This document shows positions 2,522-29,034 of a stretch of 33,418 bases of DNA, piece after piece. Positions within the stretch are counted from its first letter, which is position 1. Each line of letters opens with the position of its first letter. A model generated the notes under the pieces. That model was given only the letters and a program-made list of their open reading frames with translations, was not told where the DNA came from and searched no databases. The position numbers and the translations under genes are program-made. The stretch is taken from the NCBI GenBank assembly GCA_007571315.1, contig RKRP01000142.1:1-33418 (forward strand), in the 5' to 3' direction. This stretch comes from Gammaproteobacteria bacterium. GTDB lineage: Bacteria; Pseudomonadota; Gammaproteobacteria; Steroidobacterales; Foliamicaceae.

Positions 2522-5038
2522 CTAGAAGGTATAGCTGGCGCGCACCCCGAATTCACGCGGGTCGGGGTAGTACAGGTTGGTGGAATTGGGAAACAACTGC
2601 GTCACAAACACGCGCCCCGGAGGGGGAACCCGCGGAGGGGGCACAAAGCCTGCGACCACGCTGATCCCGGCAAAATCGGGCGCGCTGAGCGCGCTGCGCA
2701 TCGTGTCATCGTCGAGCAGGTTGCTGACGTAGGCCATCACCATCCACGGGCCGCGCGAAACACCCACCCGCAGGTCCGCCAGCATATAGCTCTCGACTTC
2801 CAGCAGATTCCATTCGGCCTCATAGCGCGAACCCTGGTACTGCACGTCCAGATCCACCATGAACTCGCCGCCATTGGCCATTGGCGAACGCCAGGAAAAG
2901 CCGGCGAACAGCTGATGCTGCGGCACATCCTCAATCTCGTTGCCGGTCAGGTCGATCAGGCAGGTGGTATTGACGCCCAGGACAACCAGTTCGCAACTGC
3001 CGCCCCGCACGGCATCGCTGATCGACGCGCTCAACTTGTTGTACTCGTCGTATTCGGAATCCAGCCAGGTGTAGCCCCAGCGCATGGTGAGATTGTCGGT
3101 CAGCACCGTGGTGGTGTCGATTTCAAACCCGGTAATTTTGGCGGCCGAAGCGTTTTCCGGCCGACTGCCCAGAACCGCCCCTTCCCCGGGCGGCAGGTAC
3201 TGCGTGGTGAGCTGCTTCTCGCTGAAATCCTGGTAGAAGAAGGCCCCGTTCACGCGCAGCCGGTTGTCCATCCAGCTGGTCTTCCAGCCCAGTTCGTACA
3301 CGGTTATTTCCTCCGCCTCGAACCGGTACACGTCGGGATTATCGAATCCCTGCGGCCCCACCAGCGAGCTGATTCCGCCAGGCTTAACGCCGCGAGAAAT
3401 GGAGCCGTACCAGGTTTGCTCGTCCGACGGGCGGTAGCGCAGCACGAGTTTGGGAGCCAGATAGCTGTCGTCCTCCTCGGCGAAGTTCTGCGGGCCATCC
3501 CGCGGCACGTCAATGAAAAACGGCCCGAAAGCGTTGGTGATCAATGTGCCGGTGGACGGGCCGGCCATATCCAGGTCCTCGCTCACGTAACGCGCCTCGA
3601 AACCCACGTCCCAGGCTTCAGTGAATTGCCAATCGACCAGGCCATACGCGGAGTAGTGCGAAATTTCCCGGTCCCAGGGATGGTTGACCCAGGGCAATTC
3701 GGTGCCTATGCGCTTCATCCAGTAGCCGCAGCTGATGGGCAATGCCGGGTTTATAGCGAACGGAGGCCGGAAACCATGCATGATGCAGGTAATCGAGTAC
3801 TCGTCCTGGTGGGTGTCTTCGGCCCAATACAGCCCTCCAAGCACCCACGTGACCGGGCCTTCGCCCGCGGAGCTCAGCCGCACCTCCTGGCTGAAGAGGT
3901 CGGTGTCTGTTTCAAAGTTGGTTTCGGCGGCCACGCTGATGCCGAAGGGGCGAACCGGAGCGGAATAATCGCCGATGCGCTGCGAATCAAAAAACTGCGT
4001 GGATTCAACGGAGCCGAAGTGACTGATGGAAGTAAGCGTGGCGCCGCCCAATTCAAACTCGGCGCGCAATTGGCCGCGCACCACTTCGCGGGTGGTGCCC
4101 GGGTAATCCTTCCCGGTGCGCGGGTCGGGCGACAGCGTCAACGTCAGTTCATCAATCCGGGCAACCGGGCCGAACGGCTGATCGACGCCGGTAGCGTCCG
4201 GGTGCCAGAGAACTCCAAGTCCAACTTCCGGCGCCGGCAGGAAGGTGCGCTTTTGGGATGCTGTGGAAGCGGCCGGGCCGAATTCGTCGTCGGTGTATTC
4301 AACCCGGGCAGTGAGCCTCGCCGAGTCCGAAATGTCCAGCGCCGCGGTCAATGTGGCGCCAACGCCCTGCTGACCGCCCACCTCGGCGCCGGTGATCAGG
4401 TTTTCGTAGAAGCCGTCCTCGTTCCAGGCGGCCGCGTTGAAGCCCACGAAGAAATTATCGCTCAAGGGCCCGCTGGCCAGGGCGGTGATTTCACGCTTGC
4501 CTTCCGCCGACAGGTCGATAGCAACCTTGGCGCGGCGCTCCGCGCTGGGGCGCCGGGTGACGTAATGGATGGCGCCGCCGAATGCGCTGCGGCCATACAG
4601 CGCCGACTGCGGGCCGCGCACCACCTCAATGCGTTCGACGTCGATCAGCCTGGGATTGACGGTGAGCGAGCTGCCGGCGGTGCGGATGGCTTCGCCGGAT
4701 ATGTCCACATCGTCCAGAAGCACCGCCACGTTCGGGCGCCCCCGGGTGGGCGACAGGCCGCGCATAACCACGCGCACATCCTGCGGACCAAAGCCCCTGT
4801 CGAAAATGATTCCCGCAGTTTGCCGGGCGATGTCATCAAGGCTCTCTATGCCCTGCACCTCCAAATCTTCCGCGCTGAAGGTTGTGATGCTGATTGGCAC
4901 TTCCTGCAGGGACTCTTCGCGCTTGCGGGCCACAACCACGATTTCCTCCAGTTCCTGAGCGTAAACCGGCATGGCCAGCGCGGCCGCGCAGGCCCCCAAA
5001 ATTGCGGCGCTGAAATGCGCCTTGCGGATGTTCATCAT
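2522..5038 (-). CDS. TonB-dependent receptor
   Basis: 838-aa ORF with signal peptide, plug domain (EEIVVVARKREESLQEVPISITTFSAEDL...VRVVMRGLSPTRGRPNVAVLLDDV...IEVVRGPQSALYGRSAFGGAIHYVTRRP) and C-terminal aromatic ending (REFGVRASYTF). Confidence 0.96.
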   Translation of the reverse strand: MMNIRKAHFSAAILGACAAALAMPVYAQELEEIVVVARKREESLQEVPISITTFSAEDLEVQGIESLDDIARQTAGIIFDRGFGPQDVRVVMRGLSPTRGRPNVAVLLDDVDISGEAIRTAGSSLTVNPRLIDVERIEVVRGPQSALYGRSAFGGAIHYVTRRPSAERRAKVAIDLSAEGKREITALASGPLSDNFFVGFNAAAWNEDGFYENLITGAEVGGQQGVGATLTAALDISDSARLTARVEYTDDEFGPAASTASQKRTFLPAPEVGLGVLWHPDATGVDQPFGPVARIDELTLTLSPDPRTGKDYPGTTREVVRGQLRAEFELGGATLTSISHFGSVESTQFFDSQRIGDYSAPVRPFGISVAAETNFETDTDLFSQEVRLSSAGEGPVTWVLGGLYWAEDTHQDEYSITCIMHGFRPPFAINPALPISCGYWMKRIGTELPWVNHPWDREISHYSAYGLVDWQFTEAWDVGFEARYVSEDLDMAGPSTGTLITNAFGPFFIDVPRDGPQNFAEEDDSYLAPKLVLRYRPSDEQTWYGSISRGVKPGGISSLVGPQGFDNPDVYRFEAEEITVYELGWKTSWMDNRLRVNGAFFYQDFSEKQLTTQYLPPGEGAVLGSRPENASAAKITGFEIDTTTVLTDNLTMRWGYTWLDSEYDEYNKLSASISDAVRGGSCELVVLGVNTTCLIDLTGNEIEDVPQHQLFAGFSWRSPMANGGEFMVDLDVQYQGSRYEAEWNLLEVESYMLADLRVGVSRGPWMVMAYVSNLLDDDTMRSALSAPDFAGISVVAGFVPPPRVPPPGRVFVTQLFPNSTNLYYPDPREFGVRASYTF

Positions 5039-5125
5039 GGTTATCGGCCCCTAGCGACCATCAGGATTGCGCCGGAATTGTGCCACAAGTGGGCCGCCGG
5101 GCGCTTTCGTATAATTGCCGGCGCT

Positions 5126-7393
5126 TTGAAAGGTTCGCGCATTCCCGGTTTCTACCGCCTGACGCCGCGCGAGCGGGTGCGAACGGCGCTCGAGCATGGC
5201 TTGCTTAACGAAGCGGACTCCAGAGGGCTGGCGAGCGGCCATTCCACGCTGGACGCTGAACGCGCCGACCGGATGATCGAGAACGTGATCGGCGTGCTGG
5301 GGCTGCCGGTGGGGCTGGGACTTAATTTCCTGATCAACGGGCGCGAGTACGTTGCGCCCATGGCCGTTGAGGAGCCCTCGGTGGTGGCGGCGCTCAGTTC
5401 TGCCGCCAAGCTGGTGCGCGAAGCGGGAGGCTTCAGGGCCGAAGCCGACGATCCGGTGCTGATCGGACAGATCCAGGTGCTGAACGTGCCCGACCCCGCC
5501 CATGCCGCCGCCAGCCTGCACTCGCGCCGGGAGGAAATCATCCGCCTGGCCAACAGCATTCACCCGCGCATGGTGGCGCGCGGGGGCGGCGTGGTGGATG
5601 TGGAAGTGCATCGCCGCCCCATGCCCGGCGGAAATGGGGAGTTGCTGGTGCTGCATCTTCTGGTCGATACGCGCGATGCGATGGGCGCCAACCTGGTCAA
5701 CAGCATGTGCGAAGGCGTGTCGGCGCTGGTGGAAAGCATGAGCGGAGGGCAGGTTTTCATGCGCATCCTCTCGAACCTGAGCGACCGCGCCCTGGCTCGC
5801 GCGCAAGTGGAAATTCCCGCGGAGCTGCTGGCTGGCAAGGGGCAAAGCGGCGAGGATGTTCGCGACGGCATCGCCATGGCGGCCAACCTGGCCGCGGCCG
5901 ATCCGTACCGGGCGGCCACGCACAACAAGGGAATCATGAACGGCGTGGACGCCGTGGCTCTGGCCACCGGCAATGACTGGCGGGCCCTGGAGGCGGGCGC
6001 GCACGCCTGGGCCGCGCGCCACGGCCATTACACAGCGCTGTCGAAATGGTGGAGCAACGAGCAGGGCGCCCTGTGCGGGCGGCTGGAAATGCCGATCAAG
6101 GTGGGCATCGTGGGAGGCTCGCAGGAGGCCAACCCGGCAACGCAGTTGTTTTTGCGCATGATGCGCGTGGGTTCGGCCCAGGAACTGGCGCGTGTCATGG
6201 CCGCTGTGGGCCTGGCGCAGAATTTCTCGGCGCTCAGGGCGCTGGTTACCGAAGGCATTCAGGCGGGGCACATGACCTTGCACGCGCGAACTGTGGTGAA
6301 GGCCGCGGGAACGCCGCCGGAATTGTTCGACCAGGTGCTTGAACGCCTGATCGGCGATGGCGAAGTGAAGGTTTGGCGGGCCCGGGAGGTTCTTGGCGAA
6401 CTCGAGCGGCAACGCGGGCTTCCGGCGCTGGATGAAGCGTCGATGGCTCGCCTGGGCGTGGCCGGGGGCAAGCTGATCCTGCTGGGCGAGCATGCCGCAG
6501 TGTTTGGCCAGCCGGCGCTGGCCTGCCCGGTGCCGGTCAACGTGCGCGCCCAAATCAGCGACAACGAGGACGGCATTCAACTGGCGGTCCCGGCGTGGGG
6601 CCTGGAGTACCGGCTGGCGCCAGGCCGCAGGCGGCGCCCCTGGGAGCGCTCAGCCCTGCAGATCCTCGAAGAGCTGGGCCTTGAGAATGAGCCGATGCGA
6701 ATTGCGGTTTTCTCGGACCTTCCGCGAGGCGCGGGGCTGGGGTCGTCCGCGGCCATGGCGGTAGCGATCATCCGCGCCATGAGCAAACGTTTCGATCTGA
6801 ACCTGAGCGTGGAGCGGGTCAACGAGATTGCCTGGCAATGCGAGCAATTCACTCACGGCTCGGCAAGCGGCGTGGACAACGCGGTGGCAGCCTACGAAAC
6901 CACCCTGCTCTACCGCAAGGGCGAACCGCCGGAGATTCAGCCGGTCATCGCCGGCGCCGACACCTGGTTCGTAATCGGAATCAGCAGCGAGGAAAGCCTC
7001 ACGGCCGTAACCGTGGAAAACGTCCGTTCGGCGCGGGACCGCAACCCCGGCCTTTATGACCGGCTCTTCAAGGAAATCGGCGAATTGGCGCGCGAGGCGC
7101 GAGGCTGCCTGGAGCAGGGCCGGCTTGAGGAGCTGGGCGACCTCATGAACATCAACCACGGGCTGCTCAATGGCCTGCAGCTGGCCACGCCCGAACTGGA
7201 GCAACTCGTGGATGCGGCGCGCATGGGCGGCGCGCTGGGCGCCAAGCTGACCGGCGCGGGGGCGGGCGGCGCCATGGTGGCCCTGTGCGCCCAGTCCTGC
7301 GGACCGGTCCGCGATGCCCTCGAAAAGGCCGGGGCCAAAACCATATCGCTGAAACTTGCCGCCGGCGGAGGGCGGGTGGAACGGGTGCCGTGA
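5126..7393 (+). CDS. Fused class II (degradative-type) HMG-CoA reductase - mevalonate kinase
   Basis: One uninterrupted frame (C-terminal part of track ORF 2480..7393). HMGR motifs: SRIPGFYRLTPRERV, ENVIGVLGLPVGLGLNFLINGREYVAPMAVEEPSV, DAMGANLVNSMCEGV, THNKGIMNGVDAV, GHMTLHARTV. From about residue 430, GHMP kinase motifs: GGKLILLGEHAAVFGQPALA, PRGAGLGSSAAMAVAII, GSASGVDNAV, GALGAKLTGAGAGGAMVAL. TTG 5126 is the nearest plausible start before the conserved N-terminus. Confidence 0.93.
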   Translation: MKGSRIPGFYRLTPRERVRTALEHGLLNEADSRGLASGHSTLDAERADRMIENVIGVLGLPVGLGLNFLINGREYVAPMAVEEPSVVAALSSAAKLVREAGGFRAEADDPVLIGQIQVLNVPDPAHAAASLHSRREEIIRLANSIHPRMVARGGGVVDVEVHRRPMPGGNGELLVLHLLVDTRDAMGANLVNSMCEGVSALVESMSGGQVFMRILSNLSDRALARAQVEIPAELLAGKGQSGEDVRDGIAMAANLAAADPYRAATHNKGIMNGVDAVALATGNDWRALEAGAHAWAARHGHYTALSKWWSNEQGALCGRLEMPIKVGIVGGSQEANPATQLFLRMMRVGSAQELARVMAAVGLAQNFSALRALVTEGIQAGHMTLHARTVVKAAGTPPELFDQVLERLIGDGEVKVWRAREVLGELERQRGLPALDEASMARLGVAGGKLILLGEHAAVFGQPALACPVPVNVRAQISDNEDGIQLAVPAWGLEYRLAPGRRRRPWERSALQILEELGLENEPMRIAVFSDLPRGAGLGSSAAMAVAIIRAMSKRFDLNLSVERVNEIAWQCEQFTHGSASGVDNAVAAYETTLLYRKGEPPEIQPVIAGADTWFVIGISSEESLTAVTVENVRSARDRNPGLYDRLFKEIGELAREARGCLEQGRLEELGDLMNINHGLLNGLQLATPELEQLVDAARMGGALGAKLTGAGAGGAMVALCAQSCGPVRDALEKAGAKTISLKLAAGGGRVERVP

Positions 7394-7929
7394 AGATGCC
7401 GGAAAACTCGCTCGGCGCGCCGCTGGCGCTGGTGGATGCCAACGACCGGCAGGTGGGCGTGGCGGAAAAGATGGAGTGCCATGAGGGCGAAGGCATTCTG
7501 CATCGCGCCTTTTCGGTGTTCATCTACGGGCCGGATGGCCGCGTGCTGCTGCAGCAGCGCAGCGCCGCCAAATGGCTGTGGCCCATGTACTGGTCGAATG
7601 CCTGCTGCGGCCATCCCCTGCCCGGCGAAGATGTCAGGCAGGCCGCAAGGCGCCGCTCGCAAGAGGAACTTGGCATCAATTGCCAGCCTCGATTTCTCTA
7701 CAAGTTCCGCTATCAGGCGCGTTACTCCCGGCAGCATTCCGAAAATGAGCTCTGCCATGTTTTTGAGGGCGATTGCAGCAGCGTCCCCAAGCCCAATCCA
7801 GCGGAAGTCGCGGCTTGGCGCTGGGTAGCGCCCGGCGAATTAACCCGTGAAATCGACCGCTTCCCGGAACGCTTCTCACCATGGATGAAGCTCGAATGGG
7901 ATGAAATCCGCCGCCGCTTCACCCGTTAA
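7390..7929 (+). CDS. idi: Isopentenyl-diphosphate delta-isomerase, type I (Nudix)
   Basis: LHRAFSVFIYGPDGRVLLQQRSAAKWLWPMYWSNACCGHPLPGEDVRQAARRRSQEELGI...ENELCHVFEG. GTG start overlaps the kinase stop (GTGA); alternative ATG at 7396. Confidence 0.93.
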   Translation: MKMPENSLGAPLALVDANDRQVGVAEKMECHEGEGILHRAFSVFIYGPDGRVLLQQRSAAKWLWPMYWSNACCGHPLPGEDVRQAARRRSQEELGINCQPRFLYKFRYQARYSRQHSENELCHVFEGDCSSVPKPNPAEVAAWRWVAPGELTREIDRFPERFSPWMKLEWDEIRRRFTR

Positions 7930-14989: not shown

Positions 14990-16003
14990 ATGGCAAAGGC
15001 ACTTGGCAATTCTCGCCGCAAGGGCATCTCGCAGGCCGGGATCATGGATATGTTTCCCGATGGCGCAGCCGCCAGGCTAGGCAAGGATGGTTCCCTCGGG
15101 CAAATTGATGCCGCCGAAGCGCCTGCCGACAGCTTGAGGAAGGACGAGCGCACCCGCAAGAAATTCCGCGCTGGGCGCAGCGCCTCAGGCGCGGCGGCAA
15201 TCTACAACGGCGATTGCGCGCAGGTGATCGCAAGCGAGATTCCTGATCAGTCCGTCAATCTCATTGTTACTTCGCCACCGTATGCCGACCAGCGCCACGG
15301 CAATTACGGCGGCATTCACCCGGACCGCTATGCAGAGTGGTTCCTGCCCAAAGCGCAGGCTTTCAAGGATTGCCTTGCGCCGGATGGGTCTTTCGTCCTT
15401 AACATCAAGGAGAAGGCGGTAGGCGGTGAGAAGCACCCCTACGTTTATGAGCTGGTGCTCGCGCTGCGGCGGGAACAGGGCTGGCGCCTGGTGGACGAAT
15501 ACTGCTGGCACAAAAAGAACTGTTATCCTGGCAAGTGGCCAAACCGCTTCAGGGATTCGTGGGAGCGCCTGTATCACTTCGCCCTTAATCCTGCCTTCAA
15601 GATGAGGCAGGAGGATGTCATGGTGCCGATGGGCGATTGGAAAGACAAGCGTTTGGCCAACTTGTCCGAAACCGACTTGCTGCGGGATGAATCCAGGCAC
15701 CGCAACGGCTTCGCGAAGCGTGTTGAAAACTGGGTGGGCCGGGATATGGCCTATCCTACCAACGTGCTGCACATGGCCACGGAGTGCAGCCACAAGGGAC
15801 ACCCCGCCACCTTCCCCAAGGCGTTGCCGGAGTGGTTTATCCGGCTTTTCACGGACGCGGGCGATACCGTGCTGGACCCGTTCGCCGGAAGCGGCACAAC
15901 ACTGGTTGCCGCTGTTGAGTTGGGGCGCAATGCAATAGGCATTGACACGCAAGAGGAGTATTGCGAAGCGATGCGGAGCGCCGTTGGTGCTGTCGCATCC
16001 TGA
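14990..16003 (+). CDS. Site-specific DNA methyltransferase (beta-type N4-cytosine/N6-adenine)
   Basis: NLIVTSPPYADQRHGNYGG (catalytic TSPPY) and C-terminal DTVLDPFAGSGTTLVAAVELGRNAIGID (SAM-binding FxGxG). Confidence 0.93.
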   Translation: MAKALGNSRRKGISQAGIMDMFPDGAAARLGKDGSLGQIDAAEAPADSLRKDERTRKKFRAGRSASGAAAIYNGDCAQVIASEIPDQSVNLIVTSPPYADQRHGNYGGIHPDRYAEWFLPKAQAFKDCLAPDGSFVLNIKEKAVGGEKHPYVYELVLALRREQGWRLVDEYCWHKKNCYPGKWPNRFRDSWERLYHFALNPAFKMRQEDVMVPMGDWKDKRLANLSETDLLRDESRHRNGFAKRVENWVGRDMAYPTNVLHMATECSHKGHPATFPKALPEWFIRLFTDAGDTVLDPFAGSGTTLVAAVELGRNAIGIDTQEEYCEAMRSAVGAVAS

Positions 16004-16727
16004 TTGGTGGGCGCGGGCCGAGCCCGGCATTCACGCATCGATCAGCAACTTTGCTGAATGGATGCAGAACAAGGTCGCCACGATCAAACCTCATCAGTTG
16101 ATCGTCAAGAATCCCTACCTGTTTCGCGCACGCGCCCCCAGAAACGCGGATCAACTGGCCGCAAGGCTGATTGACGCTTTCTTGTCGTCAAGCGAGGAAA
16201 CCCGCTTCGGCGACATCCTGGAATCAACGGCTGTAGCAATCTGCCGCGAGTCAAAGGGGGGCTGGAAGTCCAGCGCGGACGGCATTGATCTTGAGTATGA
16301 CGAAGACGAAGTCCGAACCATCATGCAGATCAAGTCAGGCACTAACTGGGGCAATTCCAGTCAACGCAAGAAACTGGTATCCGACTTCCAATCCGCCGTG
16401 CGAACCTTGCGGCAAGGGCGAAGCATGCAGGTGCGTTGCGTGGAAGGTATCTGCTACGGCCCAAGCGGATTAAAGGATTACGGTTCCCATATTCGGATTG
16501 TCGGCAACGCCTTCTGGCAGGACATCAGCGGATGGGCGGATGCAGGCCGCGCCGTCATGAGAGTCGTTGAGCAACATGCGGCCAATGGCCTGAAGGATGT
16601 CGTTGCCGGCACTCGCGCAACTGTTGTTGATTACCTGCAACGCTCAGGCGTGACAACTCACGGCGATGTGGACTGGGACCGGCTGTACGACCTGATTATG
16701 ATGCCCGCCCGCGAGAGACCGCGTTAA
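15942..16727 (+). CDS. Type II restriction endonuclease, PmeII-like family
   Basis: NPYLFRARAPRNADQLAARLIDAFLSSSEETRFGDILES, GIDLEYDEDEVRTIMQIKSGTNWGNSSQRKK (PD-(D/E)xK-like core), VEGICYGPSG, AFWQDISG. Adjacent to and overlapping the methyltransferase. Start may instead be GTG 15987. Confidence 0.82.
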   Translation: MTRKRSIAKRCGAPLVLSHPDWWARAEPGIHASISNFAEWMQNKVATIKPHQLIVKNPYLFRARAPRNADQLAARLIDAFLSSSEETRFGDILESTAVAICRESKGGWKSSADGIDLEYDEDEVRTIMQIKSGTNWGNSSQRKKLVSDFQSAVRTLRQGRSMQVRCVEGICYGPSGLKDYGSHIRIVGNAFWQDISGWADAGRAVMRVVEQHAANGLKDVVAGTRATVVDYLQRSGVTTHGDVDWDRLYDLIMMPARERPR

Positions 16728-18082: not shown

Positions 18083-19963
18083 TCAGGCGGCGGAGCTGAA
18101 CCAGGTTTGGAATTCGGGGGCTTTGGGGGCCGGGAGGCCGGTTTCGGCCTGGCAGCGGGCCTTGAGCTCTTCGGGGGTGCCGCCAAAGTCGAACAGCGAG
18201 GTGTCGCCGCGCTCCGCAGCCATGTCGCTGCGCAGCTTCCCGGTGGCGGCTTCATCGACCTCGCCGTCCTCGTTGCACACCACGCCGTAGCGCCGGGCGC
18301 CGTCCACGGATACCAGCCCGGCGGCCACATCAAAGCCCACCTGTTCGACCGCGCGCTTGAGCGGATCGCCCCAGCCGCCGCCGCCCCAGGTGTCGAAGTA
18401 GAGCAAATCGCCCGGCTCCACCTTGATTCGGTCGCACTTCGATTGCAGCAGTTCCTCGCTGCCGTCAACCCGATGCAAAATTTTGCGGCTGCGCTGCCCG
18501 GGCAGCCCGCCGTTCACGCCCCAGGGATAGGTGAGCCAGCGGTCGTCGTGAATCGAAATTTCACCCGGCTCCAAAAAGCGGTAGCCCACGCGCAGCGCGT
18601 TGCCGCCGCGATGCAAGCCGGGGCCGCCGCTGTCTGGCAGCGTCTCGTACACATCGATCCGCAACGGAAAATAGCTTTCCAGAAACTCATTGGGCACGTT
18701 GGTGAAGCTCGGCCACAGCGAATGGCCATCCGGCCCGTCGCCAAAAGGCTTGCCGGGAATGCCGCCGAAACCGATCTGGTAGAGCTGATACCACTCGCCG
18801 TCGGCGCGCCGGTAGCCGGAGTACATGAAGTGCGGGCTGTCGGAGAAACCGGCCGCGCACAGGAAATCCGGATTGCCCTGCCCCAGCAGCCCGCCCAGCA
18901 CGTCGAAGATGCGTCCCAGGGCATGGGTGCGGCAGGAGAGCGCCGCCGGGAACCGCGGCTTGAGAAGCGTGCCCTCAGGTATGCGCACATCCATCAGGTC
19001 ATAGAAGCCGTCGTTGAACATGATCTGCGGATCGAACACCATAATCATGTACACCCCGGCGAACATCTTGAACATTTCCTCGTTGAGGTAGAAGTTCACC
19101 GAGCTGATGGACTGCGGGTCCGTGCCCTCGAAATCGAAGATCACCTTGTCGCCCTCGCGCCACATTGCGCACTTGATCTTGTACGGCCCCATGCCCAGGC
19201 CGTCGTCGCAGATGAAGTCCTCGAAATACTGCTTCGTTTCCGGCACGGTCTTGTGAATGAGCGTGCCCATGGCGCGCTTGTTGCGGTCGAGCAGCTCCTC
19301 CAGCGCGGAGTAATAGACATCGTCGCCAAAGCGTTCCGCCATCTCGATAACGCGCTTCTCGGCGGTGCGGATAGCGGCCACGATGGCATTGAAGTCGCTC
19401 CGGTTCCAGTGCGGCAGGCGGCAATTGTGCAGAATCAGCCGCAGCACATCCTCCTGGAGTTGGTCGTTCTGGTAAATCTTCACCGGCGGCACGCGAATGC
19501 CTTCCTCGAAGATCTGGCGGGCATCGGTTGGCAAGCTCCCGGGCACCTTGCCGCCAATGTCGGTCATGTGGCCGAACATGGAGGCGTAGGCGATCAGCCG
19601 CCCGTCCTTGAAAATGGGCCGCAGCAGCAGCCAGTCGTTGGCGTGGCTCACGGCCCCGTTGCAGGCGTAGGGGTCGGTGGTGAGGAACATGTCGCCTTCC
19701 TCGATCGTGCCGTCGTACGCCTCCTTGAATCCGTGGATAAAACTGCCGAACTGTCCCACCACCATCTTGCCTTCCAGGTTGGCGATCATGGGAAATTCGT
19801 CGTGCTGCTCGCGGATTCCGGGCGACATGGCGGTGCGGAACAGCACCGCGTCCATCTCCCAGCGCGCGTTGAGCATCGCGTTCTCGATAATGTCCAGCGT
19901 AATGGGGTCCAACTCCACGCGCTCAAAGGGGCGCGGGCGGCTTTCTATGATTTGTGCAGGCAT
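18083..19963 (-). CDS. hyuB: Hydantoinase B / N-methylhydantoinase beta-like subunit
   Basis: 626 aa: LDPITLDIIENAMLNARWEMDAVLFRTAMSPGIREQHDEFPMI, MFGHMTDIGGKVPGSLPTDARQIFEEGIRVPPVKI, GGPGLHRGGNALRVGYRF. Confidence 0.95.
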   Translation of the reverse strand: MPAQIIESRPRPFERVELDPITLDIIENAMLNARWEMDAVLFRTAMSPGIREQHDEFPMIANLEGKMVVGQFGSFIHGFKEAYDGTIEEGDMFLTTDPYACNGAVSHANDWLLLRPIFKDGRLIAYASMFGHMTDIGGKVPGSLPTDARQIFEEGIRVPPVKIYQNDQLQEDVLRLILHNCRLPHWNRSDFNAIVAAIRTAEKRVIEMAERFGDDVYYSALEELLDRNKRAMGTLIHKTVPETKQYFEDFICDDGLGMGPYKIKCAMWREGDKVIFDFEGTDPQSISSVNFYLNEEMFKMFAGVYMIMVFDPQIMFNDGFYDLMDVRIPEGTLLKPRFPAALSCRTHALGRIFDVLGGLLGQGNPDFLCAAGFSDSPHFMYSGYRRADGEWYQLYQIGFGGIPGKPFGDGPDGHSLWPSFTNVPNEFLESYFPLRIDVYETLPDSGGPGLHRGGNALRVGYRFLEPGEISIHDDRWLTYPWGVNGGLPGQRSRKILHRVDGSEELLQSKCDRIKVEPGDLLYFDTWGGGGWGDPLKRAVEQVGFDVAAGLVSVDGARRYGVVCNEDGEVDEAATGKLRSDMAAERGDTSLFDFGGTPEELKARCQAETGLPAPKAPEFQTWFSSAA

Positions 19964-19977
19964 TGCGTAACTCCCGT

Positions 19978-22035
19978 TCAGGAATCCGAGGGCGTAATCA
20001 GGATGTTGCCGTATTCGTCAACCCGCCCCTCGTGAGCAGGAAGAACCAGCGTGGTGGAGTCCATCTCCAGCACGATCGCGGGACCGGCTATCACGTTGCC
20101 GGCCTTGAGCCTGGAGCGGTCGTAAAGCATCGCTTTTTGCATCCCGCCATCCACATAGATCTCGTGCGCGCTCATCTCCGCAGCCGCGGGACTGGCGCCG
20201 CCTTGCTCCACCCGCAAGGCGCGCACCACGGTGGGCTTGCCTTCCGCCACGGCGCGCAGGTTGACCAGCTCCTTGTCTTCCGGCAAGGCGAAGGTGAACA
20301 ACTGCTCGTGCATCTGGTCGAATTTTCCTCCGATCGCCTCCAGGCCCTGCGCCCGCAAATCGTCCAGCTCAAAATCCACCGTCAGCAGCAGGCCCTGGCC
20401 GTGGTAGCGGATGTCCGCCTGGTAGCTCAGGGTCTGATCGCTGCGGGCAATGCCTTCTTCGTCCAGCGCCGCCGAAGCCTGCTCCGCCAAATCGGCGAAG
20501 ATTGCCGCGGCCTCGTCCGCGCTGGTGCGCCCGAAGCGCTTGATGAAGGTGCGCGAGGCCTCGTTGCGCACCCGCGTGGTGGCGTCGCCGTAAGCGCACA
20601 GCACGCCCGGCCCCGGAGGAATGATGACCGGCCAGGAGCTCATCAGCTTGCCCAGCGCATTGGCGTGCAAGGGCCCCGCTCCGCCAAAGGCGATCAAGGC
20701 GAATTCGCGCGGGTCGTGGCCCTGCTCCACCGACACCAGGCGCAAGGCGCCGTACATGTTTTCGTTCACCAGGCTCACGATGCCCGAAGCGGCCTCCATC
20801 AGCGAAAGCCCCAGAGCGTCGGCGACCTGCCGCACCGCGGCTTCGGCGGCAGCCCGGTCCATCTTCATGTCGCCGCCCAGCCGCACTTCCGCCGGCAGGT
20901 AGCCGAGCACCACGTTGGCATCGGTGACCGTGGGCTTCCCGCCGCCCCTGGCGTAAGCTGCGGGGCCCGGGTCGGCGCCAGCGCTCTCCGGCCCCACGCG
21001 CAACGCCCCGGTCAGCTCCGGCACATGGGCGACGGACCCGCCCCCGGCGCCTACGGTGCGCACATCAACCGACGAAGCGCGCACGGTCACGTCGCCAACG
21101 GTGGTCTCGCGCCGCAGTTGCGCCTGACCATCCTGCACCAGCGCCACATCCGTGGAGGTGCCGCCCATGTCGAAGGTCAGCAGATTTTTGCGCCCGGCCT
21201 GCGAGGCAATCCAGATGGCTCCGGAAACGCCGCCTGCCGGGCCGCTCATCAGCAGGTTGACGGGGTAAGCCTCGGCGGCGTCCGCGGAGGCCAGCCCGCC
21301 ATCGGAGCGCAGCACATGCAGTTGCACGCCGCTCATGGTGTCGTTGAGCTGCTGCTGAAGATTGCGAACGTAGGTGGCCACCTTCGGACGCACATAGGAA
21401 TTGGCCACCGTGGTGATGGTGCGCTCGTACTCCTGCATCTCCGGCACCACCTCCGACGACAGCGACACCGGCACGCCGGGAAGAACGCGCTCGGCCACCG
21501 CCCTAAGCTGCTGCTCATGCGCCGGGTTGGCGAAGGAATTAATCAGCGACACGGTCAGCGCTTCAACGCCGCGGCCCGCCAGCTTCTTCAATTCGCTTTC
21601 CAGCGCGTCCTCATTCAGTTCGCGCACCACCGAACCGTCGGCGCCAATGCGCTCGTCCGCTTCGATGGTGAGCGCCAGCGGCGCCAGCGGCAGGCTCTTG
21701 TTGTAGATCACCCATCCGCCCAGGCCGCCCGGCACGAAGGAACGGGCAATCTGCAGCACCTGCCGGTAGCCCCGGGTGGTCACCAGCCCAACCCGGGCCC
21801 CCGTGCCGGTAAGGATGGTGTTGGTGGCCACCGTGGTGCCATGCATCACATGGCTAATGTCGCCAGGATTCACGCCCGCATCGCCACAAACCCTGCTGAT
21901 GCCGTTGGAAACGCCGATCGACGAGTCCTCCGGCGTGCTGGGGACCTTTGCGGTGTGCATCTCCCCCGACTGCTCGTTAACCAGGAGCAGGTCGGTAAAG
22001 GTGCCGCCCACATCCACGCCCAAGCGATAGCTCAT
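19978..22035 (-). CDS. hyuA: Hydantoinase A / N-methylhydantoinase alpha-like subunit (ATPase fold)
   Basis: 685 aa: YRLGVDVGGTFTDLLLVNEQSGEMHTAKVPSTPEDSSIGVSNGI, HGTTVATNTILTGTGARVGLVTTRGYRQVLQIAR, NLLTFDMGGTSTDVALV. RBS-like GGGAGAAATAGC before ATG. Confidence 0.96.
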   Translation of the reverse strand: MSYRLGVDVGGTFTDLLLVNEQSGEMHTAKVPSTPEDSSIGVSNGISRVCGDAGVNPGDISHVMHGTTVATNTILTGTGARVGLVTTRGYRQVLQIARSFVPGGLGGWVIYNKSLPLAPLALTIEADERIGADGSVVRELNEDALESELKKLAGRGVEALTVSLINSFANPAHEQQLRAVAERVLPGVPVSLSSEVVPEMQEYERTITTVANSYVRPKVATYVRNLQQQLNDTMSGVQLHVLRSDGGLASADAAEAYPVNLLMSGPAGGVSGAIWIASQAGRKNLLTFDMGGTSTDVALVQDGQAQLRRETTVGDVTVRASSVDVRTVGAGGGSVAHVPELTGALRVGPESAGADPGPAAYARGGGKPTVTDANVVLGYLPAEVRLGGDMKMDRAAAEAAVRQVADALGLSLMEAASGIVSLVNENMYGALRLVSVEQGHDPREFALIAFGGAGPLHANALGKLMSSWPVIIPPGPGVLCAYGDATTRVRNEASRTFIKRFGRTSADEAAAIFADLAEQASAALDEEGIARSDQTLSYQADIRYHGQGLLLTVDFELDDLRAQGLEAIGGKFDQMHEQLFTFALPEDKELVNLRAVAEGKPTVVRALRVEQGGASPAAAEMSAHEIYVDGGMQKAMLYDRSRLKAGNVIAGPAIVLEMDSTTLVLPAHEGRVDEYGNILITPSDS

Positions 22036-22062: not shown

Positions 22063-22989
22063 TCAAGCCCGCGCGCCCATCGCCACGTCCGGAAAAATTC
22101 CGGCGCGCGGCAGCATCGCAGGCAAATCGCCGTGGCCCAGCTGCTCGCGCAGCCAGCCACTGGTTTCGATAACTTTCTTCAACGACACTCCAGTCTCCAC
22201 GCCGGAACGCGACAGCAGGTACAGAAGGTCGTCGGTGGGAATATTGCCGGTGGCCCGCGGCGCGAATGGGCAGCCGCCAATGCCGCCAATGCTGGCGTCG
22301 ATGGAGGCAGCGCCAGCGTCCAGAGCGGCCTGGGCATTGGCCAATCCGGTATTGCGGGTGTTGTGCAGGTGCACCCGGATCGGCAGGCCAGGCAGGCGCT
22401 CCGAAATCCGTCCGAGAACATCGGTGATTTGCGCCGGCACCGCCACGCCTATGGAATCGGCAATTCCCAGTTCCACCGGATCGCCCTCGGCAACGCGCTC
22501 GGCGTATTCCACCACCCGCTCTGGCGGCACCTCGCCTTCGAAGGGGCAGCCAAACGCCGACGACACCATGCAGTTGGCGCGCATCCCCTCCCGTTTGGCC
22601 TGCCTGGCAATCTTCAGCCAGGCCTCGATGGATTCAAGACTGGACACTCCCTGGTTGCGCCGGTTGTAGGTATCGCTGGACACCACCACCATGCCCACTT
22701 CGTCGATGCCGCAATCCCGGGCGCGTTCGTACCCCCGCTGGTTCAGCGCCAGCCCGATAAAGATCAGGCCGTCCTCCTTCGGCAGGCCGCGAACAACCGC
22801 TTCGGCATCGGCCATCTGGGGCACGCGCCTGGGATGAACGAAGCTCACCGCCTCCACCTTGCGGATTCCCGCGTCAACGGCGCGGCGAATAAATTCCAGC
22901 TTCACCCCGGTGGGCAGCACCTTTTCGGCCTGCAGGCCGTCCCGCGGCCCCACTTCCACAATGGAAACACGGCGTGCGCTGGTAGTCAT
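22063..22989 (-). CDS. Hydroxymethylglutaryl-CoA lyase family protein
   Basis: VSIVEVGPRDGLQAEKVLPTGVKLEFIRRAVDAGIRKVEAVSFVHPRRVPQMADAE, VHLHNTRNTGLANAQAAL, ASIGGIGGCPFAPRATGNIPTDDLLYLL. ATG 22989; track ORF starts at 23013. Confidence 0.94.
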   Translation of the reverse strand: MTTSARRVSIVEVGPRDGLQAEKVLPTGVKLEFIRRAVDAGIRKVEAVSFVHPRRVPQMADAEAVVRGLPKEDGLIFIGLALNQRGYERARDCGIDEVGMVVVSSDTYNRRNQGVSSLESIEAWLKIARQAKREGMRANCMVSSAFGCPFEGEVPPERVVEYAERVAEGDPVELGIADSIGVAVPAQITDVLGRISERLPGLPIRVHLHNTRNTGLANAQAALDAGAASIDASIGGIGGCPFAPRATGNIPTDDLLYLLSRSGVETGVSLKKVIETSGWLREQLGHGDLPAMLPRAGIFPDVAMGARA

Positions 22990-23115
22990 CAAACTGCTGC
23001 CCCCTCTTGCCAAAGGAGCGTATTCTATACAATGTACGCTGATACTTCATACTGGCGCGGTTCCTTGAGGCAAGCCGGGCCGGGCACTTCGCGTCGCAAA
23101 GAGGGGAAACAGAAC

Positions 23116-27873: not shown

Positions 27874-29034
27874 TCAACTCAGACCCAATTCCGCCAGCGC
27901 CTCGCGCCAGTGAACGCAAAGAACGCTGCCTATCCGCAGGCGTTGCAGGTCACGGCTCACGCACAAGGCAAGCGGCTGGACAAAATCGCCGGCAAAGCGC
28001 ATCAAATTGCGCGCGTCTCTTTCATCGGCACGGCGCGAGGACTTGATTTCGAGCAGCGCGGTGCTCATGCCGGGACGTTCGATCACCAGGTCAATTTCCG
28101 CCCCGGCGCCGGTGCGCAGGTACGAGAGCTTCCAATCCGGATAGCGGTAGCGGCACAAGTGGGCAATCTGCGTAATCACAAAGTGCTCGAAAGCTCTCCC
28201 GTATTCGTAAGTCCCTGCGGTGAGCGGCACCTCCAAAGTCCGGTCCAATGACCGTTTGATGCCCGTGTCGAAGTAGTAGAACTTTGGGTTGGAGCGCTGC
28301 TGCTTGCGGATGGAGCGGTGAAACGCCGGCAGCAGAAAACCCACAAGCGTGTCTTCCAGAATGCCGAAGTAGGTCATGACGGTCTTGGGATCAACGCGCG
28401 CATCCCTGGCGATATTGGCGTAGTTGACGATCTTGCCGTTCGCCTGCGCGGCAATCTCCAGAAACTGCCGGAAAGGGTTGAGACGCCTGACGATTTGCTC
28501 GGCAACGATTTCCTCTTTCAGATAGGTCAATGCGTAGGCGCGAAGATAGGCGCGGCGGTCCTCGTCCGTTTCCAACGCGTAAAGCCTGGGCAGCGTGCCC
28601 CAGCGCAGAACGTCGTCCAGCTTGCAGGCATCCGCAAGCTCCGGCACGGTCAGAGGGTAAAGGTTGTGCACGAATGCCCTGCCTGCGAGAAGATTCGATG
28701 CGCCCCGCCGCAGTTTCCGGCCGCTCGACCCGGTTAGCGCAAACCGTTTCCCGGTGCTCTCAATAAGATTGTGAACCACATCCAGAAGCCGCGGCGCGCG
28801 CTGCACCTCGTCGATCAGAATCCACTCCACGCTGTCAGGCAACGCCCTGGCCTGCTGCGCCAGCCGGCCGGGTCGTCTGGCATACAAATCCTCGGTTTCC
28901 GGATTGAGCAAGTCCAGGTACAGCGACTCGCCAGGCTTGAACGCATCCTGGATGTAGGTGGTCTTACCCGTGCCGCGCGCGCCGAACAGAAAGAACGAAC
29001 TGCGCTTGCTGATCTGCAGGATTCTTCGGAACAT
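27874..29034 (-). CDS. AAA ATPase with DUF4143-like C-terminal domain
   Basis: RSSFFLFGARGTGKTTYIQDAF (Walker A), EWILIDEVQRAPRLLDVVHNLIE (Walker B), FALTGSSGRKLRRGASNLLAGRAFVHNLYPLTVPEL, C-terminal YLRTGAGAEIDLVIERPG...LLEIKSS. Confidence 0.93.
   Translation of the reverse strand: MFRRILQISKRSSFFLFGARGTGKTTYIQDAFKPGESLYLDLLNPETEDLYARRPGRLAQQARALPDSVEWILIDEVQRAPRLLDVVHNLIESTGKRFALTGSSGRKLRRGASNLLAGRAFVHNLYPLTVPELADACKLDDVLRWGTLPRLYALETDEDRRAYLRAYALTYLKEEIVAEQIVRRLNPFRQFLEIAAQANGKIVNYANIARDARVDPKTVMTYFGILEDTLVGFLLPAFHRSIRKQQRSNPKFYYFDTGIKRSLDRTLEVPLTAGTYEYGRAFEHFVITQIAHLCRYRYPDWKLSYLRTGAGAEIDLVIERPGMSTALLEIKSSRRADERDARNLMRFAGDFVQPLALCVSRDLQRLRIGSVLCVHWREALAELGLS

Follow-up and report, generated by a model that had tools for sequence, protein, structure and literature searches.

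A natural single-frame fusion of class II HMG-CoA reductase and mevalonate kinase in bacteria, predicted to act in isoprenoid biosynthesis

HMG-CoA reductase (HMGR) is usually called the rate-limiting enzyme of the mevalonate pathway. The class II enzymes known as MvaA, such as those of Pseudomonas mevalonii (1qax), Delftia (6dio), Burkholderia (6p7k) and Streptococcus pneumoniae (5wpj), are single-domain proteins that carry no kinase. The archaeal-type mevalonate kinase (MVK) of Methanosarcina mazei (6mde/4hac), which is reportedly feedback-resistant, likewise stands alone, and both HMGR and MVK are usually homodimers. A natural fusion of HMGR with another enzyme of its pathway is found in MvaE of Enterococcus, in which the partner is the upstream acetoacetyl-CoA thiolase, located N-terminally. 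IspDF of the MEP pathway is also a bifunctional enzyme of isoprenoid-precursor synthesis, although it belongs to a different pathway and joins non-consecutive steps. Both MvaE and IspDF are named as fusions in PMC13001223.

The protein described herein differs from MvaE in that its reductase is joined to the downstream kinase, at the C-terminal side. It is encoded in a stretch of 33,418 nucleotides (the window) from a marine gammaproteobacterium. No paper describing an HMGR–MVK fusion was found in the open literature, subscription papers lying outside the scope of the search; the sequences themselves are public. Searches of the same literature under Calditrichota, Caldithrix abyssi or sponge symbionts together with mevalonate returned nothing on it. 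Word searches likewise gave no mention of the fusion in a 2026 survey of bacterial isoprenoid pathways or in a 2026 preprint on 6,924 bacterial HMGRs. The features of the window on which the following discussion depends are:

5110–5115, + strand: perfect TATAAT, 10 bases ahead of the TTG; the five closest relatives have it as well
5126–7393, + strand: HMGR–MVK fusion gene, TTG start, 755 amino acids, stop included
5126–6415, + strand: class II HMG-CoA reductase domain, residues 1–430, with E83, K268, D284 and H382 and the cofactor helix H146-P-R148-M-V-A-R152
6416–6460, + strand: linker of 15 residues (431–445), lowest model confidence, below 50 at 431–434
6461–7390, + strand: mevalonate kinase (GHMP) domain, residues 446–755, with K449, GLGSSAA, E573, D584 and GAKLTGAGAGG
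7396–7929, + strand: type I isopentenyl-diphosphate isomerase gene (idi), NF002995 at 186.8 bits, cut-off 127
22063–23013, − strand: hydroxymethylglutaryl-CoA lyase gene, 280 bits, cut-off 246

An earlier, sequence-only reading had claimed that one uninterrupted frame joins a complete class II HMGR to a complete GHMP mevalonate kinase, and all parts of this claim hold. The frame runs unbroken from TTG to TGA, with no stop or frameshift at the domain junction, and a domain search of it finds both enzymes. The reductase half matches Pfam HMG-CoA_red (PF00368) over residues 28–387 with 352 bits (cut-off 27) and NCBIfam TIGR00532 over residues ~3–430 with 399 bits (cut-off 260). The kinase half matches the Pfam GHMP N and GHMP C domains (66.8 and 45.1 bits) and, from residue 446 to ~735, model positions 1–276 of the mevalonate kinase model TIGR00549 with 232 bits (cut-off 163). 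The Pfam search found no thiolase domain in the frame. All four catalytic residues of the reductase (Glu, Lys, Asp, His) are kept as E83, K268, D284 and H382; by sequence alignment with the solved HMGR they correspond to the active residues of the P. mevalonii enzyme, E83, K267, D283 and H381. In the kinase, the catalytic K449, S541, E573 and D584 are kept, and the GHMP motif set is complete (K449, GLGSSAA, E573, SGVDN with D584, GAKLTGAGAGG). The reductase shares its fold, its four catalytic residues and ~41–51% identity with the MvaA enzymes, and the kinase has the GHMP fold and motifs in common with M. mazei MVK at ~32% identity.

Comparison with close relatives favours the TTG at 5126 as the start codon. 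In one of them (L005) an in-frame stop lies 12 codons upstream, so that the equivalent TTG is the first usual start codon left. Furthermore, codon differences from L002, L003 and L005 are mostly synonymous in both domains from about codon 1 on and mostly non-synonymous upstream of the TTG. A frame arising by chance is excluded. Should the TATAAT at 5110–5115 act as a genuine −10 box, the fusion mRNA would be nearly leaderless; a generic sigma-70 promoter scan found no complete site near the gene. A perfect inverted repeat, TTGTG-C-CACAA (5078–5088), lies between a divergent TonB receptor gene (2522–5038, − strand) and the fusion. L005 has this repeat too, L002 and L004 have imperfect versions of it, and L003 has lost it; it is a possible operator.

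The junction could be an artefact of misassembly or of a mis-binned contig, and the source genome is indeed a draft of 204 contigs. This explanation has practically no chance of being correct, given that the same junction recurs in dozens of independent assemblies, among them isolate genomes (Cryobacterium, Frigoribacterium) and chromosome-level assemblies. It is also very improbable that the fusion is merely apparent, with an internal start or cleavage freeing the kinase as a second functional protein. An in-frame ATG does lie inside the linker of the window and of four close relatives, but the corresponding Met is replaced in L005 and missing from most other linkers. Moreover, no complete copy has a break in the frame, and purifying selection acts on the region around the junction. 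A split fusion in one relative (G198), for which a single TAA had been reported, was rejected, as direct reading shows an open frame across the junction.

How closely the two domains are coupled can be considered from the linker and from a predicted structure. Across the fused relatives the linker varies from 6 to 86 residues and is poorly conserved, the longer versions being rich in Gly/Ala or Gln/Ser. The AlphaFold model of the fusion has a mean pLDDT of 85.5 and is confident inside each domain; compared with solved structures, it is most similar to class II HMGRs, followed by mevalonate kinases. The relative placement of the domains is not fixed in the model (pTM 0.55). In P. mevalonii, the C-terminal part of HMGR shuts over the active site, and in the fusion this part passes directly into the linker. 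A short tether emerging from the reductase's C-terminal flap, together with the consecutive nature of the two steps, might suggest a substrate channel, with mevalonate handed straight from the active site of the reductase to that of the kinase; this would be a stronger version of the reading preferred here. We consider such a channel unlikely, because a linker of so variable a length argues against a rigid tunnel; its low conservation, its Gly/Ala- or Gln/Ser-rich composition when long and the lack of a settled domain arrangement in the model also speak against it. The linkers and the predicted structure rather fit a flexible tether that would fix 1:1 expression and proximity. Since the parent enzymes are usually homodimers, the fusion protein may form larger assemblies.

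The fusion is not restricted to the window. A single scan of GTDB genomes yielded 30 further full-length single-frame fusions and one ended by a contig boundary, all with HMGR preceding MVK. The architecture recurs in Gammaproteobacteria of several orders, in Calditrichota and in Microbacteriaceae (including the Cryobacterium and Frigoribacterium isolates); the Myxococcota copy is the incomplete one, and a copy from one MAG labelled Caldisericaceae groups with Calditrichota. In samples of single taxa, which may overlap in genomes with the first scan, a full-length fusion was found in 32 of 40 Calditrichota genomes (six more have a partial one, mostly at contig ends), in about 10 of 369 Gammaproteobacteria and in 6 of 150 genomes of the Microbacteriaceae sample. 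Thus, the statement of the sequence-only reading that the two enzymes are normally separate does not apply to Calditrichota, in which the fused form is the normal state.

In the HMGR tree, 39 fused reductases form one clade with respect to 18 single-domain relatives (support 100/100), the outgroup being drawn from the best 80 matches of one scan, and Calditrichota branch first (98/88). These main groups reappear in the MVK tree, whose stand-alone outgroups are three rows with very long branches, a weak test of a single origin on the kinase side. Distances in the two domains correlate with r = 0.886, a value reached in none of 2000 shuffles. This correlation and the agreement of the trees indicate that the halves travel together. 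The single clade of fused reductases and the co-evolution of the domains point to one old fusion event, after which the gene was spread as a unit. The early branching of Calditrichota and their phylum-wide possession of the gene suggest, without proving it, that the fusion is oldest there.

The reductase had been assigned in the sequence-only reading to a 'degradative' sequence class. What stands of this is the name of the TIGR00532 model, which is the only source of the label. An Asp in the cofactor helix governs the choice between NADH and NADPH (PMC12292504), and the motifs Dx(V/L)xxxL and (H/Y)xSxxxR have been associated with NADH and NADPH, respectively (PMC13370337). The NADH motif is not matched in the window (H146, R148, R152), and the NADPH motif is matched in part, by His at position 1 and Arg at position 7, with Arg instead of Ser at position 3. 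The HMGRs of P. mevalonii, Delftia and Burkholderia carry the NADH-type Asp146, in contrast to the fused clade, which has His (rarely Gln/Asn) and Arg152. Asp146 is absent from all 39 fused HMGRs, 37 of which have His in its place, with the Arg kept in an NADPH-like helix H-P-[KRN]...R, while 17 of the 18 single-domain relatives keep the Asp; on the tree this loss is one change, hence one event rather than 39. Given the lost Asp and the His and Arg in the helix, the fused reductase is predicted to use NADPH or both cofactors. Given the residues that they carry, the 'degradative' label is misleading for these proteins.

The pathway surrounding the fusion was sought in the window and in the rest of the genome. 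The idi gene, which the earlier reading did not mention, begins 2 bases past the fusion stop, probably in the same operon. In relatives, the usual gene order is diphosphomevalonate decarboxylase (MVD), a PMK-like kinase, the fusion and idi. HMG-CoA synthase (HMGS), PMK and the decarboxylase had been noted as missing from the window, and they are located elsewhere in the same genome, where contig 107 carries HMGS, decarboxylase, PMK-like and farnesyl-diphosphate-synthase-like genes in this order. MVD and idi both score above their model cut-offs, and the PMK-like gene falls below that of the PMK model. The HMGS is divergent (TIGR01835 below cut-off, one weak PF08540 piece), but it matches solved HMG-CoA synthases. 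The set of HMGS, HMGR, MVK, PMK, MVD and IDI is therefore represented in full, HMGS and the PMK-like kinase with scores below cut-off. No second HMGR and no second MVK was found in this genome, the other TIGR00549 matches being the PMK-like gene and MVD. The HMG-CoA synthases of fusion-bearing genomes are generally long (~490–500 amino acids), divergent and far below the prokaryotic HMGS cut-off (for example, L084 9907–11379, − strand), and possibly represent a distinct HMGS subfamily. In some Pseudomonadales relatives (L013 23–9992) the fusion operon lies amid squalene synthase-like and hpnH (hopanoid) genes, which suggests hopanoids as one sink of its isoprenoids there.

In a family-by-family search, dxr, ispG and ispH of the MEP pathway were found neither in the window's genome nor in its five close relatives. 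The source genome is 91% complete, so that one missing gene alone would be weak evidence; the absence of three, in close relatives too, is stronger. Among the 43 fusion genomes tested, ispG is missing in 39; the exceptions are one gammaproteobacterium (G071) and three Microbacteriaceae, which have the mevalonate and MEP pathways together. In G071 the fusion (locus L091) is accompanied by both dxr and ispG, perhaps as a recent acquisition or an intermediate. Within the Gammaproteobacteria sample, dxr occurs in 300 of 369 genomes, namely in 1 of the 10 fusion carriers versus 299 of the 359 others (p = 1.5e-6 in a Fisher test, which ignores shared descent).

A catabolic role has to be weighed against these data. 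The reductase could run backwards from mevalonate to HMG-CoA, as in P. mevalonii, with the HMG-CoA lyase of the window cleaving the product and the kinase as an accessory. Besides the 'degradative' model name, two points agree with such a role: the lyase gene is present, and the closest solved relatives (from P. mevalonii, Delftia and Burkholderia) are NADH enzymes. Nevertheless, it is highly unlikely, as the NADH-type Asp is lost, the fused kinase consumes mevalonate in the opposite direction, the forward pathway (HMGS, PMK, MVD, idi) is complete and the MEP genes are missing. The lyase is located 14 kb away, beside two hydantoinase/caprolactamase-like subunits (18083–22035, − strand), and HMG-CoA lyase also serves leucine breakdown. 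Together these genes make up a catabolic cluster, one that deals with HMG-CoA as well. Elsewhere in the window, a type II restriction-modification pair (14990–16727, + strand) consists of an N6/N4 DNA methylase followed, with slight overlap, by an EcoO109I-type restriction endonuclease. An AAA_14/DUF4143 ATPase gene (27874–29034, − strand) borders a stretch of lower GC content (28–32 kb, 55–56% versus ~64%) that is possibly acquired DNA.

The biosynthetic reading put forward from the sequence alone is thus strongly backed by the gene content of the genome. The fusion is very probably a bifunctional enzyme of isoprenoid biosynthesis that converts HMG-CoA via mevalonate to 5-phosphomevalonate with an obligate 1:1 ratio of the two activities. 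The observations behind this are the architecture, the conserved residues, the single clade, the co-evolution of the domains, the pathway context and the absence of MEP genes. The N-terminal class II reductase would form mevalonate from HMG-CoA, the probable reductant being NADPH or either of the two cofactors, and the C-terminal GHMP kinase would phosphorylate this mevalonate with ATP. The tether would hold the kinase close to the C-terminal flap of the reductase, in a protein that would supply the sole reductase and the sole mevalonate kinase found in the genome, within the sole IPP pathway found. Both enzymatic activities, the cofactor, the oligomeric state and any kinetic benefit are predictions. 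More tentatively, and as a possibility rather than a probability, the gene would mark a mevalonate module that is passed on by inheritance and occurs throughout the phylum Calditrichota. This module would have entered several lineages of Gammaproteobacteria and a few of Actinobacteria, taking over completely from the MEP pathway in most of the gammaproteobacterial ones, with a reductase shifted from NADH to NADPH and a kinase tied to it that pulls flux forward.

Such a natural and long-retained tie of the pathway's reductase to the next enzyme can be tested and used in isoprenoid engineering. Automatic annotation based on TIGR00532 may name the protein as a 'degradative' reductase only, thereby masking the kinase. 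In addition, the fusion flags bacteria, including many Gammaproteobacteria, that apparently rely on mevalonate without an MEP pathway, and this reliance alters which isoprenoid inhibitors, of the fosmidomycin type or of the statin type, should act on them.
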